Assembly (NCBI RefSeq): GCF_015500095.1
Contig: NZ_CP062983.1
Location: 2,356,001 to 2,420,000, forward strand
Direction: 5' to 3'
From: Phototrophicus methaneseepsis
GTDB lineage: Bacteria > Chloroflexota > Anaerolineae > Aggregatilineales > Phototrophicaceae
Length of the DNA stretch: 64,000 nucleotides
In this document: positions 28,276 through 39,753 of the stretch, in pieces
Layout of the letters: each line of letters starts with the position of its first letter
Numbering within the stretch: position 1 is the stretch's first letter
The notes under the pieces: generated by a model
What the model saw: only the letters and a program-made list of their open reading frames with translations
The model's database searches: none
What the model was told of the DNA's origin: nothing
Program-made: the position numbers and the translations under genes

Positions 28276-29337
28276 TTAGCGGATTTGCGTGGGTGTCCCA
28301 CTGGTCAAAGCTGCATCAAAGCGGAAGATGCCATTGGGCAGGTTGATATAGAGTTGTCCCTGCGCATCGGGTTGTAGCGTGATGGTGGGGTTTGTCATGC
28401 TGCTGGTGCCCCAACCAATAACGCTGTACCACGGCCCGCCAATAGCTAGCTGATTGTAATAGACTGATTGCAAATCTGCCCCCGGAGCCTGGAACCCACT
28501 TGGCGGTGTGGCTGGAGGGGTACCGGCGTACGGCTGATAATTGGAGCAGCTATACCGCTGGCGATCCTGCTGATAACCGCAAACTTTGTCGAGCGAGTTG
28601 TATTGCACGCGGAACATAAAGCCTGTTTGGAAGGGCTGATAAGCGCCAATGACATTTGTTGCGGTTGCGCTGGGGCAACCAAGGGCCGCAGATGCATTTG
28701 AGAAGAACCACGATGTACTGCACGAAACGGCAATAGCTACTGATAGGCTCGTCTCCTGGCCGGCGCGCACAGCGACCAGCCGATAGACAACGCGCGTTTC
28801 ACCAGCAGGCACAGTCAGCGTGGATGATGATACAGGCGGAACGGGAATCGTCTCCTGGATGACGCCTGCGCTGTTCAGGCGCTCAATGCGAGCGCTGTCT
28901 GCTTCTGCGCTCCACGTCAGGATAACCTGCGTGCCTGGTGCTGCACTGGCAATATTGCTCGTAAACGAATTGATCACAGGTACAGAGGCTGTTGCACTGG
29001 CAACGGGCGTATCGGTCGCGCTAGGAACAGGGGTGTTGCTAGGCAGCGGCGTCAGCGTATGGGTTGATGTCGCTGTGGGTGGCAGGGGCGTCCCTGTAAG
29101 CGTTGCCGTGGGCGTATTTGTCGGCGTCGCCGTTACTGTGGGTGTAGATGTTGCTGTGGGCGTATCCGTGCTCGTCGGGATCAACGTCTCTGTGGGCGTC
29201 CACGTTGCTGTGGGTGTAACTGGCGTCGGCGTATCAAGCATTGCCAACGTTGGCAATGGTTCCTCTGCCTGAGGTTGGCAGGCAGCAGAAATTACCACCA
29301 TTAGCAGGAGCATGATAAGATTGCGCCTGTTAAGCAT
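28276..29337 (-). CDS. Thr/Pro-rich lipoprotein, unknown function
   Basis: 353 residues. The lipobox ISAAC places the lipid-carrying Cys at about residue 20. Residues 30-120 are a low-complexity Thr/Pro/Ala spacer made of repeated TPTxT units. A beta-sandwich-like domain follows (about 120-205: FTSNIASAAPGTQVILTWSAEADSARIERLN, the pattern of Ig-like repeats), then a Cys-containing C-terminal part with SCSTSWFFSNASAALGCP that I do not recognise. The protein should be anchored to the membrane and reach out on the spacer. Its start is only 35 bp from the divergent M14 peptidase lipoprotein, so the two may share control. Confidence 0.82.
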   Translation of the reverse strand: MLNRRNLIMLLLMVVISAACQPQAEEPLPTLAMLDTPTPVTPTATWTPTETLIPTSTDTPTATSTPTVTATPTNTPTATLTGTPLPPTATSTHTLTPLPSNTPVPSATDTPVASATASVPVINSFTSNIASAAPGTQVILTWSAEADSARIERLNSAGVIQETIPVPPVSSSTLTVPAGETRVVYRLVAVRAGQETSLSVAIAVSCSTSWFFSNASAALGCPSATATNVIGAYQPFQTGFMFRVQYNSLDKVCGYQQDRQRYSCSNYQPYAGTPPATPPSGFQAPGADLQSVYYNQLAIGGPWYSVIGWGTSSMTNPTITLQPDAQGQLYINLPNGIFRFDAALTSGTPTQIR

Positions 29338-29372: not shown

Positions 29373-30422
29373 ATGCGCTACATTACAATGATTATAGCGC
29401 TATTCGGCGTCTTGACCATCAGTGCTTGTACGAATATGCCGAATGAGCCTGCACCACTGCCGACACTTGCTCAACTGCCCGTTGCAACAACGCCGTCACC
29501 GAGCTTGACGCCAACGCAGACGGCGACGGCGACAAATACACCCACGGAACAGCCCACCTTTGCTGAGACGCTGCCGCCCAGCGCTACGGCTACCATAGGG
29601 GGGCTTTCTGCGGCTGTAAATCCGACGCACACACCCAGGCCCATTCTAATGGCGACGCATACAGCATTGCCGCCTTCAGCAACCAGGACCGCTGCCCCGC
29701 CCGCGACCCTGTTACCCACTGCGTTCAGCTTCGGTCAATCAGCGGAAGGACGCACCTTGGAAGCGTTTCGGTTTGGGACAGGCCCCACTGTGATCCTGCT
29801 GGTGGGTGGCATCCATGCAGGCTTCGAAGCCAATACTATTGAACTTGTCGAGGCTATGAAGGCCCATTTTGAAGAAACGCCTTCTGACATTCTCTCAGGG
29901 ATGACGCTGTTGCTCGTGCCTACTCTGAACGCCGATGGCGCAGCCCATGGCCGCCAATTGAGAGGGCGCTTTAACGGTAATGAGGTCGATCTCAACCGGA
30001 ATTGGGGCTGTGATTGGTCGCCAGAGGCGGAATTCGGGCAGGGGCCTGTTGACCCTGGTGATGCTGCTTTTTCAGAGCCGGAGACGAGCGCCCTGGGGGC
30101 ACTCATCCAACAGGTGCGACCTGCTGCGGTGTTGTTCTATCATGCCGCCGCAAATGGTGTTTTCACAGGGGAGTGTGGCAGCTTCAACAGTGACGAACTG
30201 GCCGAAATCTACGGGAATGCAACGAGCTACCCGTATGGGAGCGAATTCAGCGATTATGAAGTGACCGGTTCCGCGCCGAATTGGGTCGCTAGCCAGGGTA
30301 TCCCCGCGCTGGATGTTGAGCTTGCGACAGCCGAGGGTACCGAGTTCCAGCGAAATTTACGGGGTGTGATGGCTGTTCAGCGCTGGTTGCTCGCCAGGAA
30401 TGCGGCTGTTAATCCGCCTTAG
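29373..30422 (+). CDS. Lipoprotein zinc carboxypeptidase, M14 family
   Basis: 349 residues. The lipobox is TISAC (Cys about residue 19), followed by a Thr/Pro-rich spacer to about residue 110. The peptidase domain has zinc ligands in GGIHAGFEANT (His and Glu in the HxxxE form found in one branch of the family), substrate-binding DLNRNWGCDW, the third zinc His in LFYHAAANG, and a catalytic Glu candidate in ALDVELATAEG. It should trim peptides or cell-wall peptides at the cell surface. The first residues of the spacer (PLPTLAQLP) resemble those of the divergent lipoprotein (PLPTLAMLD), hinting at shared origin of the exported N-terminus. Confidence 0.87.
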   Translation: MRYITMIIALFGVLTISACTNMPNEPAPLPTLAQLPVATTPSPSLTPTQTATATNTPTEQPTFAETLPPSATATIGGLSAAVNPTHTPRPILMATHTALPPSATRTAAPPATLLPTAFSFGQSAEGRTLEAFRFGTGPTVILLVGGIHAGFEANTIELVEAMKAHFEETPSDILSGMTLLLVPTLNADGAAHGRQLRGRFNGNEVDLNRNWGCDWSPEAEFGQGPVDPGDAAFSEPETSALGALIQQVRPAAVLFYHAAANGVFTGECGSFNSDELAEIYGNATSYPYGSEFSDYEVTGSAPNWVASQGIPALDVELATAEGTEFQRNLRGVMAVQRWLLARNAAVNPP

Positions 30423-30465: not shown

Positions 30466-31623
30466 TTAGCAGGCCGACTGTGCGATTTGCTGCGGCTCGG
30501 AAACAGGCACTGACACCCAGAAGATAGACCCACCCTCTGGTGGGAAATCTGCCCCCACAGCACCGCCGAAGTGATGAACGAGCTGCTTGATAATCCACAG
30601 CCCAAGCCCGGAACTATGTTCATTGCCAGTGGGTTGGTTGCTCGTCCGGCTGAACTCCTGGAACAGCTTACCGCGCTCTTCTTCCTTGACGCCAGGGCCC
30701 TGGTCTCTTACACAGAGACGGATAAATCCATTGACTTCTTCTGTCCAGATATCGATGCTGGAATTGAAGGGGCTGTATTTGATGGCGTTACTGACTAGAT
30801 TCCCTACGATTTGAACCATACGGTCGAAATCCGCCACGAAGATGCCGTGAATATCATGCACATTGAGCTTGATATTTTTGTTATAAGCCGCGATGCGGTT
30901 CTGGCTGGTCACCTGTTCGACGACCACATCCATCGCCAGTTCATCCATCTTAAAGTCAAGTTTGCCCGTCTGGATTGCCATGACATCCAGAAATGCAGAT
31001 AGAATGCTGTCCATTGTCTTGACGGATTCCTGAACATTATTCAGGACACTATCGACGCCATCAACTTCTGCCGCGATTGAATGTAGCACGTTGGTCGCCA
31101 GGCTGATGTTATGCAGGGGGTTTTTGAGGTCGTGGGCAGCGATGCGGAAGAGGCGTGTGCGTAATTCGCTGACCGTCTCTAATTCACGCATGACCTGTTT
31201 ATTTTCGTCCAATGCACGCTTCAGGGTAATCTGCGTGCGGACGCGCGCCAGCACAACTTCTGTATCAGCGGGTTTGATGATGTAATCGTTTGCGCCTAGC
31301 TTAAGCCCGCGCACGATATCATCGTTGCCGCCCATTGCTGTCACGATGATAACGGGTAAATCCGCGTACTCTGGTTGAGCACGTAAATAGCTGAGCAACT
31401 GCAAGCCATTCATACCCGGCATCATCACATCGAGCAGGAGCAGGTCATACTCCGTTTCCTGTAAAATTTCCATCGCTGCTTTTGCGTTGTTCACGCTGTC
31501 GACAAGATAGTAACGCTTTAGCAGGTGGTACATCAGGTTGCGCATCATCGTGTCGTCATCAACGACGAGGATGCGAGACGGACGCTGTGTGTGATTGTTG
31601 GGTTTTTTGAGCTGTTCAGCCAT
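30466..31623 (-). CDS. Receiver-histidine kinase hybrid signalling protein
   Basis: 385 residues from the ATG at 31623, preferred over a TTG at 31647. The receiver comes first: VVDDD, phospho-acceptor Asp65 in LLLLDVMMPGMNG, and Lys in YIIKPAD. A short coiled link leads to the kinase: His164 in AAHDLKNPL, N-box NLVSNAIKYSP, G1 VRDQGPGV and G2 SSGLGLWIIKQL. There is no membrane segment, so it is cytosolic. Receiver-first hybrids usually receive phosphate from an upstream kinase and pass the signal on through their own kinase part. No output regulator is adjacent. Confidence 0.92.
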   Translation of the reverse strand: MAEQLKKPNNHTQRPSRILVVDDDTMMRNLMYHLLKRYYLVDSVNNAKAAMEILQETEYDLLLLDVMMPGMNGLQLLSYLRAQPEYADLPVIIVTAMGGNDDIVRGLKLGANDYIIKPADTEVVLARVRTQITLKRALDENKQVMRELETVSELRTRLFRIAAHDLKNPLHNISLATNVLHSIAAEVDGVDSVLNNVQESVKTMDSILSAFLDVMAIQTGKLDFKMDELAMDVVVEQVTSQNRIAAYNKNIKLNVHDIHGIFVADFDRMVQIVGNLVSNAIKYSPFNSSIDIWTEEVNGFIRLCVRDQGPGVKEEERGKLFQEFSRTSNQPTGNEHSSGLGLWIIKQLVHHFGGAVGADFPPEGGSIFWVSVPVSEPQQIAQSAC

Positions 31624-31794
31624 CTTCCCAAATGCCTCATCTACCAAACCACAAATTTTAACGTGATTTACTGAATCAAGAATACATAGCGTTTAACTTA
31701 AAATCAATTATATTTTATACGTAATTCCCCGTAAGAAAGCTTAACGTTGGTTAGGAATAAAGCGTAAATGACGTTTTTTATACGTAACACTACT

Positions 31795-31857: not shown

Positions 31858-34800
31858 TTAAACGAGGGTGATCTGCCACGTAGTAATACCGAGTATGACA
31901 CCCCCATCATGGACGAAAAGCATCGGTGTTACGGCGGCATCCGGTGCCAAAAAGTCGAAGGGTTGGCCCAGGGGTTCATCATTGATATAGATGGTGATCT
32001 GGCCTGTGGTTGGCTCGCGATCGACGCGCAAACGCACACCTGTCCTTGGGTCTATCGGACGGCGATTGACGAAGGTTGTTTCATTGTTGAGCACCTTCTG
32101 GACATCGATGACGGTATCGCTCACCACGCTGATGCGGATACCCGCGACATTGCCGTCTGTGGTGCTCGCCAGCAGCAGGCCAAAGTAAATATCCTCATCC
32201 CCTGCCACTGCCGGGTTAATCGTCCGTAGGGCCATAGTTGCCTCTGTCCGGCGGAGCCGAACAGCCGCGTTATTGCCATAGATGCGCTCAAGCTGCTCCG
32301 AGGTGGGGCTGATGTAGATATTTTCTCCACCCATATTCTGTGCCGCGCCAAAACGCCAGCTTTCATCATCCTGTGGGAAGAAGACAGTCGCGTCATAATC
32401 CCCGCTTGTGTTCTGTATGACGTCAAACACGCTTTGTACGCCCCGCAGTCCTTCCGGCGGCAGGGTTGGCAATGGCGTTGGCGAGAGCGTAGGCTGCCTG
32501 GTATCTGTGGCGGAGGGCGCTTCTGTTGGTGTAGTGCTAGGGGTGGCTGATGCTGTGACAGGCGTTGCTGTGAGCGTTGTCACGGTGTCCTGTGTAGTGG
32601 CGATGGTGGGCTCAACAGCCAGGGTATCTGTTGCCGCAACTTCTTCACTAGGGACAGCCGCTTCTGTCGTGCTGGTTAAATCCATCGCTGCCAGCGCAAT
32701 CGCCGTGAAATCCTCGGTAGGGGCTTGTGTCATCGCTTCTGTAGGATTGTTGGCTGTTTCTTCGTTCGTCGCGCTGATGGTCACATCAATCACTGTCGCA
32801 TCGCTGCCGTTGTTGTTCAATAGCATCAGGCCAATCACAGAGGCGATAATCGCGATGATGCCAATGCCGCCAGCCAGCATGAGCGGCCAACGACGGCGTG
32901 TTTCTACGCGGGGTTGGGCCGCTGGTGTCTCCAGGGTGGCGCTGCGATGGATGGGTTGTGGCTCGACATCCGTATCCATATGAGGCATTGGATCATCGGT
33001 CGGGGGTGCTGGGAACTCCGGCGAGGCTTCCAGAACAGCATACCAATGGCGATACAGCGGGTAGGCTGGGTGTCTATCAATGAATAACGCCCGGAACAGT
33101 TCATTCATGCGGTCCAGGCGCCGGCTGCGACGTTCTGTCCCCGTATACACATCCAGGAATTGCTCGTAAGTATCACGCCAGCTTGTGAGTGTTGCAGCAT
33201 AATCTGCGTTCAGAGACTGCTGAGTCGTATTCGCCAGCTCATGGTGGAGTTCACGCAAGCGGGGATTAGGATCATCCTGTTGCTGGCTGATGAGTGTGGT
33301 CATTTCGCGCCGTGCGACGGCCAGTTCAGCAACCGCAGACATGAGTTCCATTAACCATGCCCGGTAAGCTGTCAGCGTAAAGCCTGCCGCTTGTTCCACT
33401 TCGCTGATGCTCTTCACGGCGCTGTCAAGTTTATTCCCCGCTGACCGGAAGTCACCATCTGCCCAGAGGCGTATTGCTTCTTCCAGTTCGCGCAGGCTCT
33501 GCGCCCCAGAAGCCACCAACCGCGCCTGGGCGTTATTTTCAAGCTGTACTTTAATCGCGCCCAATTGGGGCAGCATATGAGGACCCATCACACTGTTGAG
33601 CAGTTCGTGCGCTTCCGATAGGTCCTTACGATGTGCCATGTAATCATCAAGCGTTCGCACGGCGATGTGCTTCTGGGCACTCTCGCCCAGGGTCTTGATC
33701 GCGGCTTCGCGCCAGAATTCGGCATCAATGAGCAGGCCTTCATGTAAATCCAGCGCGCCCAGCATGACATACTGCACGAAGAGCAGGCGCAGCGCGGCAG
33801 TACTCCGCTGCCGATAAATTTCGACGAGGCCTTTGGGCATGGCCTTGAGGTAAGTCTCGATGCTGGGCATCTGCGATGTAAAGCCATTCAGCGTTGCATG
33901 TTCATCTTCTGTGAACAGACGATCAACAGCGGTGTTGGTGCTCTGGGTATGGCTGACGCTGGATACGCCATTGCGTTCGACCCATTCACGCAACAACTGC
34001 GCGATCTGGCGCAGACGTGTCGCTGCGTAGCGCTCTGGCTCACTGCGGGCGATTTCAAGGGCTTGCTGGCCGAGTCGCTCCGCATCCTGTAACCGGCCAC
34101 TATCGAAGGCTTGCCAGCCATCCGCCAGGGCGCGGCCAATGCCACCGGGTACAGAATGGCGTTCAATGTAATGCGCGCCAGCAATGACGTTATTCAATTG
34201 GTTCAGCCAGTTTTGCAGGGCAGGGCTGAGCGTTTTGATTTGCTGAGCCGCATCATTGAGGCTGCTCTCCGCCCATTCACGGTTGCCCTGGACGACTGCC
34301 TCCCTATAATGCTGCCAATCTTCGGCGGCGCGCTCCAGGCCGCGCACCATGTTATTGAGCATGTCATCGAACAGTCGATTGACAAATGGCGAGAGCGTCG
34401 TATGGGTGGCGCGCAGCCAATCGGCTAAATCGGATCCATCAGCCGCGGGGACGTACGTCTGGCACATTTGCAGCCGCTCATAGAGGCGGTTCAATAGGTC
34501 TTCTACACTGTCCCAGATCGGATTGGGGGCATCAATGGCGCGGCTCGTAATCAGCGCATTGAGTGCATCGCGTGGGCGTGCAGCGGCTTGCTTGCCGATG
34601 ACGTGCATATTATCGGCAAGGGCCATGGCGGCATTGAGCGCGCGTTCCAGGGAACTGAGCGGTAGCTCATTGTTGCTAAGCTGGTGCGAGACGGAGAACG
34701 TCTGTAATAAGCGGTTCAGATGAATGAGATGATCGACGACTTCACGGTAGCCATCGCGTAAGCCGGAAACATCGCTGTTACCGGAATCAAGCCGATGTAA

Positions 34801-36198
34801 AACTTCGTCGATCTGGTCCAGCACAGCGCGAGATTCACCAATGGAGACGCCAGAGCGGTTAATCTGGCGCAGGGCATTGCGCAGCCGCATCAGATTAGGC
34901 CGCAGCAGTAAAATATCGGTCACATGGGATGAAATGCGCTCTGCAAGCCGCCATTGCGCTGCACGGACATCATCGTTGCTGGTATCAGCGTTCATCAGGG
35001 CTGCTGCTGCCGTTGCGGGCTGATCTTCGTACATGGCAAAGATCGCTTCTGTTACAGCGGGCGATACTGGCGATAGGCGTTCTTCTTGCAAAATTTGCGC
35101 GGCATCGCTCAGCCAACCGACAAGGCGAGCGTTGTTCGGGCTGGTCTTATTGCGCAGCTCAGCTAGCAGATTGACCGCGCCATCCCAGTTGCCATTTTGC
35201 AAATAGATTTTGACAGCATCCAGGTCAGACGCGACGGCTAATTCTTGCAGCCGACCATCAATATTTGCTAATAAGGCCTTGGCTTGTGGGTAGCCTGGGT
35301 CCTGCGCAATGACAGGCTCCAGCATGGCGCGTAATGTGCGCAGTTCATTTTTGCTGAGGCTGCGCTGCTTCAGACGATCCCCGACAGTGCTCAGTGTCGC
35401 GGCTCGGCTGCGTTCGAGCGGTTCCCGATAGCGCTGTAGATCCGTACGCAATGCTTGAATATTGGGATAGCGCAGACGGGTATTGGGGTGCAGGGCCTTG
35501 CTGATAATACTCCGCAGTTGCGGGTCAACGCGCTGTTGATCATCGCCAAAATCAACTTCGAAGGTGTTATCGGCATCACGGGGGACTTCCGCACGTTTGC
35601 CACCTGTGACGATGAAGTAAAGCAGTTCCCCCACCTGGAAGACATCTGTCTGACGACTGATGCCCTGCGGCGTCATCTCGTCGCCTTCCAAAAAGACGGC
35701 ATTCCCCCAGTCAATCGCTTTGAGGGAGTAGGTGTCTCTATTCCAGAACAGATGCTTGGCATCTACATCGTTATAGATGATGTCTTTAGCATGGGCAGCA
35801 TGCAGCATATCCAACAGGCGATCCATGATGAGCAGCATTTCCAGCTCTGGTAGGCGGTCGCCATTCGCTGCTAATGCCAGCACTTCATCTTCGATGATGC
35901 TACCTTGGGCGCGCTCTACGACGATGTATTGATGCGCCATGCCACCTACAGCGAACTGGCCTTCGCCCAATAATTCCGTCAGGACGGGGTGGCCGGCCAG
36001 GCGGCGCAGTGCCTGACGTTCATTTTTAATACTGACTTCCTGCCCGGCACGGATTGGCGGTGCATCGTTCGGCGCAGGTCGCTTAATCACAACGCTGCGC
36101 CCGCTTTCTGTATCGGTAGCGCGCAGTGTCTCCCCAGAACGACCTCGTGGGTAGATGTAATCATAACGATAGCGCTGATCGAAGATACTTTCCGCCAT
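31858..36198 (-). CDS. Very large kinase-like membrane protein with altered catalytic loop
   Basis: 1446 residues from the ATG at 36198, which follows aggacc; a TTG at 36219 is a weaker option. Residues 1-270 have a protein-kinase fold: Lys39 in SVVIKRP, Glu60, catalytic-loop Asp144 in IYNDVDAKHLFW and Asp163 in AIDWGN. The loop lysine (DxK) is replaced by Asp146 and the metal-binding Asn by His149, so catalysis is doubtful. A helical region of about 830 residues follows, then a transmembrane segment (about 1104-1127), a Thr/Pro-rich spacer (1128-1248) and a C-terminal beta-rich domain (1250-1446) that resembles concanavalin-like carbohydrate-binding folds. The kinase part would be cytosolic and the C-terminal domain outside, as in a wall or sugar sensor. 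The gene stands alone behind three TTGGGAT repeats. Confidence 0.8.
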   Translation of the reverse strand: MAESIFDQRYRYDYIYPRGRSGETLRATDTESGRSVVIKRPAPNDAPPIRAGQEVSIKNERQALRRLAGHPVLTELLGEGQFAVGGMAHQYIVVERAQGSIIEDEVLALAANGDRLPELEMLLIMDRLLDMLHAAHAKDIIYNDVDAKHLFWNRDTYSLKAIDWGNAVFLEGDEMTPQGISRQTDVFQVGELLYFIVTGGKRAEVPRDADNTFEVDFGDDQQRVDPQLRSIISKALHPNTRLRYPNIQALRTDLQRYREPLERSRAATLSTVGDRLKQRSLSKNELRTLRAMLEPVIAQDPGYPQAKALLANIDGRLQELAVASDLDAVKIYLQNGNWDGAVNLLAELRNKTSPNNARLVGWLSDAAQILQEERLSPVSPAVTEAIFAMYEDQPATAAAALMNADTSNDDVRAAQWRLAERISSHVTDILLLRPNLMRLRNALRQINRSGVSIGESRAVLDQIDEVLHRLDSGNSDVSGLRDGYREVVDHLIHLNRLLQTFSVSHQLSNNELPLSSLERALNAAMALADNMHVIGKQAAARPRDALNALITSRAIDAPNPIWDSVEDLLNRLYERLQMCQTYVPAADGSDLADWLRATHTTLSPFVNRLFDDMLNNMVRGLERAAEDWQHYREAVVQGNREWAESSLNDAAQQIKTLSPALQNWLNQLNNVIAGAHYIERHSVPGGIGRALADGWQAFDSGRLQDAERLGQQALEIARSEPERYAATRLRQIAQLLREWVERNGVSSVSHTQSTNTAVDRLFTEDEHATLNGFTSQMPSIETYLKAMPKGLVEIYRQRSTAALRLLFVQYVMLGALDLHEGLLIDAEFWREAAIKTLGESAQKHIAVRTLDDYMAHRKDLSEAHELLNSVMGPHMLPQLGAIKVQLENNAQARLVASGAQSLRELEEAIRLWADGDFRSAGNKLDSAVKSISEVEQAAGFTLTAYRAWLMELMSAVAELAVARREMTTLISQQQDDPNPRLRELHHELANTTQQSLNADYAATLTSWRDTYEQFLDVYTGTERRSRRLDRMNELFRALFIDRHPAYPLYRHWYAVLEASPEFPAPPTDDPMPHMDTDVEPQPIHRSATLETPAAQPRVETRRRWPLMLAGGIGIIAIIASVIGLMLLNNNGSDATVIDVTISATNEETANNPTEAMTQAPTEDFTAIALAAMDLTSTTEAAVPSEEVAATDTLAVEPTIATTQDTVTTLTATPVTASATPSTTPTEAPSATDTRQPTLSPTPLPTLPPEGLRGVQSVFDVIQNTSGDYDATVFFPQDDESWRFGAAQNMGGENIYISPTSEQLERIYGNNAAVRLRRTEATMALRTINPAVAGDEDIYFGLLLASTTDGNVAGIRISVVSDTVIDVQKVLNNETTFVNRRPIDPRTGVRLRVDREPTTGQITIYINDEPLGQPFDFLAPDAAVTPMLFVHDGGVILGITTWQITLV

Positions 36199-36617
36199 GT
36201 GCGTGGTCCTATTCTTCAAAAGAATGTGCTGCCAAGGATGACCGTCTGGGTGGCTGGTCTTCTGTTGGGCACGCCTGTAATTGTACGCACCTGTGCCTGT
36301 GCTGCAAGGGATGCACGACCCAAATTTTGGGATAAAAGTTCGGTCATTTTGGGATAAAAATAATCTAACTTGGGATTTAGATAGCTTTTCGCCCCCTATG
36401 TCGCCCCCAAATCAGGATATGTAGTTTAATACGAAGTGGCATGGCTTCGTAGGTCAAAAAGCACCAAATTAGATGAGATTGGATTGAATCGCGTTTTGTT
36501 TGGTCACTTTCTCGGATGCTGCTTGTAACAGGATTCCTATCTGCCCCTGTTACAATAGCGTCTTATCTCTTATAACCTCAAAGTTCATTCATCGAGAGAG
36601 CGTAAAGGTCGTTTTTG
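36199..36617. other. Intergenic control region between kinase-like gene and dtd
   Basis: A 419-bp stretch without a credible gene. Its main feature is the set of three TTGGGAT repeats at 36327-36376. The half nearer dtd is AT-rich but has no clear -35/-10 pair. Confidence 0.5.
36327..36376. repeat. Three phased TTGGGAT direct repeats
   Basis: TTGGGAT occurs at 36327-36333, 36349-36355 and 36370-36376. Spacings are 22 and 21 bp, two helical turns. The first two copies share 14 bp (attttgggataaaa). Regular spacing suggests binding of a protein on one face of the DNA, controlling the kinase-like gene, dtd or both. Confidence 0.6.
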
Positions 36618-38187: not shown

Positions 38188-39753
38188 ATGCAGCGTTCTT
38201 CTTTAGCGATTTCTATCATGATGATCTTTTTGTTGGCTGCTTGCGGCGGTCCTCAGGCTGAGCGTGTTACCCTGGTCCCCACGCAGATTGGGGCCGGTGC
38301 GCCTGTTTATACAGCCACGGCGACTTTTACGCCTAGCGCGACGCCAACCGCGAGCGATACGCCAACTGTCACACCGACAGCGACGGCGACCCCTACGGCA
38401 ACCGCCACGCCGACAGCCACGGCGACACCCACACAGACCGCGACGGCGACCTCAACGCCGACGGCAACCCCTCCCTTGCGGACGCTCACGCCATTACCCA
38501 GTGTAAGTGGCCCTGCAGGCAATGTGGGTCCGGCTCGCGTTAGCGATGCAGATGGCTGGTCCTGCGGCGACTTCCCCTGTGAAGCGGATATTGAGGGTTG
38601 GCTGGCGCGTATTGGCGTGCCTGCTGGTTTTTCTGTAGGGCATGTTGGGCGTTTCCCTGGGCAGGTGATGCAGATCACCTACGGCCCGGATGACCGCTTA
38701 TACGCCACTGTGTTGGAAGATGGCACTTTCCAGGGGGCCGTTTATGTGATGAATGCAGATCGCACCACAGAGCGCTACAGTATGACCATGAATCATCCCA
38801 ATGGCCTTGCTTTCCAGCCAGGGACGGATGTGCTTTATGTCGCGGCACGTCATCACAATGATGAAAGCGGCCTTCTATGGCGCGTCGAGAGCGATGGCAT
38901 TATGGATGCTGTTATTGACGATTTGCCATGCTGCTATGAGGATTACAACCAGCCTAATGGCCTCATCTTTGGGCCGGATGGCTATTTATACATGGCGATT
39001 GGTGCGAAGACGGATCATGGCGAGAGCAGCGCGCCCGGCAGCCGTCCCTATGATGAGATTGGCCCCTTCGAAGCGGGAGTGCTGCGCATCAACCCGCATA
39101 CTGGCAATGTGGAACGTTACGCAGAAGGCATGCGCAACCCCTTTGACCTGGCATTTACTAGCGACGGGCAATTTTATGCCACTGACCAGGGTCTTGTGAC
39201 GGGCCCCGGTGACCGCATTTTGCGCGTTGATGAAGGCGCTGATTATGGCTGGCCCTATTATCGGCTGCGCGGCTGTGCAGATTGCCCGCCGAGCCGTGGC
39301 GTGGCAGGTATCGCGCCGGATTTGCTGACACTGCCTGATTTCACGCTGCCGAGCGGGCTGGTTGCTTATCAGGGTAGTGCTTTGCCATCTGTGATGCAGG
39401 ATACGCTGCTCGTCGCGTTCTGGAATGGCACAAATGGCGCACAGCGCATCGCCTGGATTGATCCCAATGATCCGGCCCTGAACAGCGAAGATTATGTCAT
39501 CAAGTCGTTTGTTACCGGGTTGGTGCGTCCGGTTGATGTGGCCCTGGCCCCGGATGGTGCTGTTGTGGTGGCTGATTATGTTTATGGGCATGTCTGGCGC
39601 ATTCAATATGGCGATGGACCCACAACGACAGGTTCCGCAACTGAGCCTATAATAGCAACGCAGGAAACGCCTCAATTCAGTTTTGAGACGCCGACCCAGG
39701 CGGCCACGACGGGCACCCGTAATCTCTTCGTCACCAGTACGCCTGCGAATTAG
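38188..39753 (+). CDS. Lipoprotein, glucose/sorbosone dehydrogenase-like beta-propeller
   Basis: 521 residues. Lipobox FLLAAC (Cys about residue 19), then a spacer of Thr/Pro/Ala repeats (about 45-100) encoded by repeated ACGCC/ACGGC-type codons at 38320-38475. The main domain has the six-bladed propeller pattern of PQQ-dependent sugar dehydrogenases: NHPNGLAFQPG, DYNQPNGLIFGPDGYLYMAIG, GVLRINPHTGNVERYAEGMRNPFDLAFTSDGQFYATDQG, GADYGWPYYRL and the closing RPVDVALAPDGAVVVADYVYGHVWRI. Related enzymes oxidise aldoses at the cell surface with PQQ. No PQQ synthesis gene is in view, so a non-catalytic or borrowed cofactor role is possible. A short Thr-rich tail closes the chain. Confidence 0.85.
   Translation: MQRSSLAISIMMIFLLAACGGPQAERVTLVPTQIGAGAPVYTATATFTPSATPTASDTPTVTPTATATPTATATPTATATPTQTATATSTPTATPPLRTLTPLPSVSGPAGNVGPARVSDADGWSCGDFPCEADIEGWLARIGVPAGFSVGHVGRFPGQVMQITYGPDDRLYATVLEDGTFQGAVYVMNADRTTERYSMTMNHPNGLAFQPGTDVLYVAARHHNDESGLLWRVESDGIMDAVIDDLPCCYEDYNQPNGLIFGPDGYLYMAIGAKTDHGESSAPGSRPYDEIGPFEAGVLRINPHTGNVERYAEGMRNPFDLAFTSDGQFYATDQGLVTGPGDRILRVDEGADYGWPYYRLRGCADCPPSRGVAGIAPDLLTLPDFTLPSGLVAYQGSALPSVMQDTLLVAFWNGTNGAQRIAWIDPNDPALNSEDYVIKSFVTGLVRPVDVALAPDGAVVVADYVYGHVWRIQYGDGPTTTGSATEPIIATQETPQFSFETPTQAATTGTRNLFVTSTPAN

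Follow-up and report, generated by a model that had tools for sequence, protein, structure and literature searches.

The 64,000-nucleotide stretch of the Phototrophicus methaneseepsis genome analysed here (the window; contig NZ_CP062983.1, positions 2,356,001 to 2,420,000) carries, at 31858..36198 on the minus strand, an open reading frame (ORF) for a membrane pseudokinase of 1446 amino acids, hereafter T. The genome, a single contig of 5.63 Mb, holds one full-length copy of this gene. Translation could start at an ATG at 36198 or at a TTG at 36219, and conservation begins at the ATG. The protein opens with a kinase-like head (residues 1-262; 35413..36198, on the minus strand like all parts of the gene), in which Pfam recognises a Pkinase domain (PF00069) on residues 18-174 (34.4 bits, cut-off 31.7), the sole kinase domain seen. 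AlphaFold models were made of the cytoplasmic part (residues 1-1062) and of the outer part (1240-1446); the modelled head adopts the two-lobed kinase fold and matches PknB with a Z score of 23.7 (237 residues, root-mean-square deviation 2.6), PknB being also the nearest solved relative of T by sequence (profile E 9e-14). An all-helical region follows (residues 275-1062; 33013..35376), modelled as helix throughout from 283 to 1058, that is, ~790 residues where a preliminary description of this DNA had counted ~830. It is perhaps a TPR-like solenoid: TPR_19 reaches 21.9 bits on it (cut-off 25), with matches at E 0.01 in two of 14 members, and a sequence profile search found no solved relative. 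The cytoplasmic model has a predicted local distance difference test (pLDDT) score of 90.3 and a predicted template modelling (pTM) score of 0.53, the latter low enough to leave the position of the kinase head relative to the helical part unsure; in a fold search with this whole model, matches covered the kinase part only.

Past the helices, an RRR motif precedes the membrane helix (residues 1106-1124; 32827..32883), which is the sole hydrophobic window of the protein (hydropathy 2.5). Next come a Thr/Pro/Ala-rich stalk (residues 1131-1250; 32449..32808; 31 Thr, 20 Ala and 14 Pro per 120 residues) and an outer domain (residues 1251-1446; 31861..32448) modelled with a mean pLDDT of 93.2. The outer domain is a ConA-like lectin/glucanase jelly-roll, with Z scores of 12-14 to many members of that fold over 154-185 residues; 3d6e (Z 13.8) and the CBM66 structure 4azz (Z 13.4) stand among many ties. 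No Pfam family was found for the outer domain of the window copy, and among 36 members there were only stray weak matches in single ones. The membrane helix, Thr/Pro stalk and external beta domain of the preliminary description are thus borne out by hydropathy, composition and model confidence. Its view that T matches neither PASTA nor WD kinases also holds: NF033483 reaches 38.1 bits (cut-off 450), and beyond Pkinase the Pfam scan found no PASTA, WD or other named domain, which led us to reject both assignments. As to the stalk, three other genes of the window (28276-29337, 29373-30422 and 38188-39753) read as a lipoprotein-like start followed by a long Thr/Pro stalk, a common surface-protein design in this genome.

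The active site of T has been rebuilt in a strictly conserved manner, as seen in an alignment of 76 sequences (the window copy, 53 from genome contigs and 22 from a further genome search; seven rows sharing one identical stretch were removed beforehand). In the catalytic loop, Y142-N-D-V-D-A-K-H-L-F-W152 (35743..35775), Asp146 replaces Lys168 and His149 replaces Asn171 (PKA numbering), the two substitutions that had been pointed out before; both are unchanged in 76/76 sequences, none of which has a canonical HRDxKxxN loop, and Tyr142, Asn143, Asp144, Leu150, Phe151 and Trp152 are identical in all of them as well. A homologue with a normal loop, named beforehand as a finding that would speak against a pseudokinase, did not turn up among the 76. 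The ATP lysine, loop Asp and DWG Asp are kept as described (Lys39, Asp144 and Asp163): Glu60 and Asp163-Trp-Gly-Asn166 are identical in every sequence and Lys39 in 75, the exception (L053) being unaligned over its first ~50 residues and apparently out of frame. The Gly loop lacks its first Gly (Pro17); Arg18 and Arg20 are found there in 74/76, that is, in all but L053 and L084, which is partial. L084, a fragment of the T kinase head, comes from a record that bears the title Synechococcaceae cyanobacterium, and its contig may have been binned wrongly. Because the loop changes occur in 76/76 sequences, they are an old, fixed signature, neither decay nor a sequencing slip; a decaying pseudogene was also rejected on length, the cytoplasmic part measuring 1044-1071 amino acids in 48 sequences.

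A second alteration, absent from the preliminary description, is the deletion of the activation segment. Between DWGN (163-166) and the alpha-F Asp185 (35644..35712), the activation, P+1 and APE elements are missing and 21-22 residues remain from the DFG Asp to the alpha-F Asp, in all 76 T sequences. The genome has 21 Pkinase matches, 19 of them above the family cut-off with T included, and the same stretch spans 35-54 residues in all 15 that were read of the 18 others above cut-off (13 measured by pattern and two by eye). As evidence that protein phosphorylation has been lost, this deletion weighs more than the changes in the loop; the two together led us to reject an ordinary active kinase, and they support the earlier designation of T as a transmembrane pseudokinase-like receptor. 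In the passages covered of PMC4718504, activation loops are described as practically missing in many pseudokinases, STRAD-alpha has a histidine (His200) at the place of Asn171 that aids ATP binding without a cation, and in ROP5B an Arg of the Gly loop takes over the job of Lys168. By analogy, we infer that the head of T binds nucleotide without ordinary catalysis: His149 would stand in for Asn171 as in STRAD-alpha, Arg18 and Arg20 would perhaps replace Lys168 as in ROP5B, and the head would be unable to phosphorylate proteins in the usual way. On this reading, T would be dead, or nearly dead, for phosphotransfer.

The same residues leave room for two other explanations. T could be an active but atypical phosphotransferase whose D-x-D-x-x-H loop and DWG bind metal and ATP in a way of their own, acting on a small molecule, a glycan or a lipid, or moving another group such as AMP or glutamate. 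We consider this rather unlikely: Lys39, Glu60, Asp144 and Asp163 are kept, and the loop and DWGN are invariant in 76/76, but an Asp sits at the place of the gamma-phosphate Lys and a His at that of the metal-binding Asn. That small-molecule kinases work without an activation segment also counts in its favour. SelO and SidJ are described as "dead" kinase folds with new chemistry (PMC12599244, in the passages covered). At the other extreme, T could be a pure structural scaffold whose head no longer binds ATP and whose loop merely holds the fold or a partner protein, P2 (below). The missing activation segment and the Gly loop without its first Gly would agree with this, as would the precedents of MviN and EssB/YukC, which act without catalysis, MviN even without binding ATP; however, invariant Lys39, Glu60 and Asp163 are unexpected in a scaffold, and MviN and EssB have lost theirs (PMC12599244, same passages). 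A pure scaffold therefore seems to us quite unlikely.

What favours a nucleotide-set switch is the company that T keeps in other genomes, which the preliminary description had not touched on; in the window's genome the partner genes lie elsewhere. In the other families of the order, the gene next after T encodes a short second pseudokinase of ~380 amino acids, P2, and the one after that a TPR/membrane/SH3 protein of ~800 amino acids, M. Among the 30 best P2 matches, all have the loop Y-[LM]-D-H-K-[LM]-[ED]-H-[IV]-Y-W and D-x-N for DFG, and in all the activation segment is replaced by 19-23 residues (23 read by pattern and seven by eye). Like T, P2 has a His at the place of Asn171, but it keeps Lys168. 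That P2 has lost more than T, with DxN for DFG, speaks further against an atypical phosphotransferase, and a large membrane scaffold design with constant partners fits a switch better. M contains TPRs, then by reading a hydrophobic stretch and a Thr/Pro stalk, and in one member (L070), close to the C-terminus, an SH3_3 domain that scores 24.7 bits, slightly under the cut-off of 27 (E 2.7e-5). That T and M share ancestry in their helical regions was rejected (hhalign probability 2.6). Compared with 14 other kinases of the genome, T and P2 do group together (support 100/99), although the program warns of long-branch meeting and the same segment is missing in both, so that their common origin is a hint and is not taken as proven. 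A third low Pkinase match, at 2590284, adjoins genes that read as aminoglycoside- and RIO-kinase-like and was left out.

The three genes tend to be present or absent together even where they are scattered, as they are in the genome of the window, with M at 0.52 Mb, P2 at 0.59 Mb and T at 2.39 Mb. Across 61 genomes (the window's own and 60 relatives; presence at E <1e-20), T, P2 and M are each present in 51, the presence of T agreeing with that of P2 in 59/61 and with that of M in 57/61, and all three are missing from all eight genomes of families f2, f5 and f6. The disagreements are few: G011 has T and M without P2, G018 (74% complete) P2 and M without T, G034 (63% complete) M only, and G027 and G028 (88% and 75% complete) lack M. 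T, P2 and M are adjacent and in one direction in 12/12 genomes of f3, f4 and f8, and T and P2 are adjacent in 4/4 genomes of f7; in f1 no T-P2 adjacency was seen, and contig ends may mask it in draft genomes. In a class-wide sample of 298 genomes, T occurs in 21 and P2 in 20, both together in 20, giving a Fisher p of 3e-30 that is too small because the genomes share descent. Outside the order, T turned up in one genome (G264, contamination 7%): one of its contigs holds a T with the loop N-D-V-D-V-K-H-L-Y-W, and another carries the final part of a T-like protein followed by P2 (YWDPKPEHVYW, IDWN) and M; wrong binning is possible, and at 33% identity these contigs are no stray from a sampled species. 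A scan of 400 genomes from the phylum for DxDxKHxxW, made with one codon pattern and including few genomes of the window's order, found it in two, both belonging to f1, a family of that order.

A role for this module is suggested by the genes around P2, surveyed over 10-16 kb in 20 hand-chosen f1 genomes and in the window's genome (G000). A PP2C gene lies near P2 in 13/21 loci and a class A PBP-like gene in eight, one or the other being present in 15/21; in 11 of the 19 loci where ORF picking kept P2, the PP2C gene is directly divergent from it. A Pfam check of five of these proteins returned two PP2C and three PBP-type, the one from L178 with transglycosylase only. PASTA kinases typically keep PP2C and PBP gene company, which is why we read the like company of P2 as a role in wall synthesis; by this analogy we place moderate trust in such a role for the T-P2-M module. 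Two observations can be added on these loci. The class A PBPs near P2 (L174 10170-14381, L173 1176-5471) carry a tail of ~490-550 residues before the transglycosylase, by reading mostly Pro/Glu-rich, which could serve docking or phosphorylation. Behind P2 in the genome of the window come two genes that are O-antigen-ligase-like (Wzy_C) and contain TPRs (L087 7926-12294). A scan around M revealed no steady company (an LCP-like gene, by reading, in 5/21 loci and a short protein in 6/21).

T itself has neighbours of another kind. Upstream, on the opposite strand, a gene that reads as D-Tyr-tRNA deacylase-like occurs in 16/75 loci, and a multi-pass membrane protein of ~1360 amino acids lies on the opposite strand at -1 or -2 of T in 30/53 loci (for example L036). 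Downstream in the window is a gene in which Pfam finds receiver, HisKA and HATPase domains (30466..31647, minus strand). T could then be the sensor of this two-component hybrid, with its other partners secondary, and besides the window such a gene does follow T on the same strand, 72-214 bp away, in seven of the 59 loci whose downstream flank measures 700 bp or more. However, it was not found after T in the other 52, and it stands outside the T-P2-M row of the other families, making a dedicated two-component sensor very improbable in our eyes. It is possible that the hybrid is a helper in part of the family and lies outside the module elsewhere.

Altogether, our best explanation, which we hold with about as much belief as doubt, is that T serves a conserved T/P2/M module as its membrane-anchored receptor and scaffold, and as a nucleotide-set switch that steers the synthesis of peptidoglycan or envelope glycan. 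The outer ConA-like domain would bind an envelope glycan, and the signal would travel along the membrane helix into the helical region and on to the kinase head; set by nucleotide, T would hold P2 and other partners, and P2, with the PP2C and class A PBP encoded near it, would deliver the output, control of peptidoglycan or envelope-glycan synthesis. Several points weigh against this explanation: (i), T retains all three residues whose loss defines a pseudokinase by the usual rule (beta3 Lys, HRD Asp or DFG Asp), and as it would be an atypical kinase by that rule (PMC12599244, in the passages covered), the name pseudokinase is a judgement; (ii), an invariant loop exceeds the needs of a mere scaffold; (iii), the jelly-roll fold is also common to many non-lectins; (iv), the link to the wall comes from the neighbours of P2 only, those of T giving no pointer to it, and even P2 is without PP2C or PBP company in the window's genome and its sister G001, the PBP orthologue of the window's genome (1217234) having neither PP2C nor P2 beside it; and (v), kinship among the genomes in the sets of 61 and 298 makes the counts non-independent. 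A bolder proposal, in our judgement unlikely, is that T and P2 form a matched pair of rewired kinase heads, a conserved His (joined in T by Asp146) having taken the place of the usual metal and gamma-phosphate residues. Such a two-gene machine would perform a new non-protein phosphotransfer or act as a nucleotide-driven switch of wall synthesis, with ConA-like (T) and SH3 (M) arms spanning the envelope.

How does T compare with known systems? PASTA kinases (PknB/Stk1) are nearest in solved fold and sequence and share the arrangement of kinase inside, membrane helix and outer domain, whereas T lacks PASTA repeats and an activation segment and has an altered loop, a ConA-like domain and ~790 helical residues. 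Nearest in layout is MviN (ActPs3) of Mycobacterium tuberculosis, which like T sits in the membrane and has its pseudokinase on the inner side. MviN also carries a MurJ part, which T lacks. We further compared T with the ActPs3, DYD, DLHK and EssB families by their defining features, as given in the passages covered of PMC12599244. There, MviN combines a pseudokinase with a carbohydrate-binding domain and regulates peptidoglycan synthesis by recruiting a partner, and T likely works in the same way, as far as this analogy goes; MviN has however lost its beta3 Lys (VALT) and DFG (Y--) and does not bind ATP, and ActPs3 proteins show full motif degradation, while in T the beta3 Lys and the DFG-type Asp are still present. 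EssB/YukC, a single-pass membrane pseudokinase scaffolding an envelope machine (type VII secretion), is close to T in topology and manner of working; it differs in that all three of its motifs are degraded where T keeps the triad, and these passages report no helical region or ConA-like domain for it. DYD pseudokinases have Arg for the beta3 Lys and no alpha-C Glu, and T keeps Lys39 and Glu60; DLHK pseudokinases have no transmembrane region, and T has one at 1106-1124 (PMC12599244, same passages). The eukaryotic STRAD-alpha, which binds ATP, acts as an allosteric partner and shares the His at Asn171 (PMC4718504, in the passages covered), is also close in manner of working. It is soluble, though, reads GLR for DFG and has an ordered activation loop, whereas in T Asp163 is retained and that loop is missing.

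Membrane pseudokinases are thus already a known kind of bacterial protein. The suggestion of the preliminary description that T could be a new kind of stand-alone surface sensor goes too far, since such membrane pseudokinases exist and the evidence favours a subunit of a three-protein module. A description of the T family, or of a module joining a membrane pseudokinase to a second pseudokinase, was not found in the literature searched on pseudokinases, Chloroflexota, PP2C/PBP and kinases of the order. Bacterial pseudokinases have been little studied, and T occurs almost universally across five families within one order of environmental bacteria, with an active site that was remodelled instead of being lost. 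Its genetic partner set (a second pseudokinase, an SH3 protein, PP2C and PBP) makes its role testable. If our explanation is true, a dead or rewired kinase pair would steer wall synthesis in these bacteria, where live PASTA kinases do so in others.

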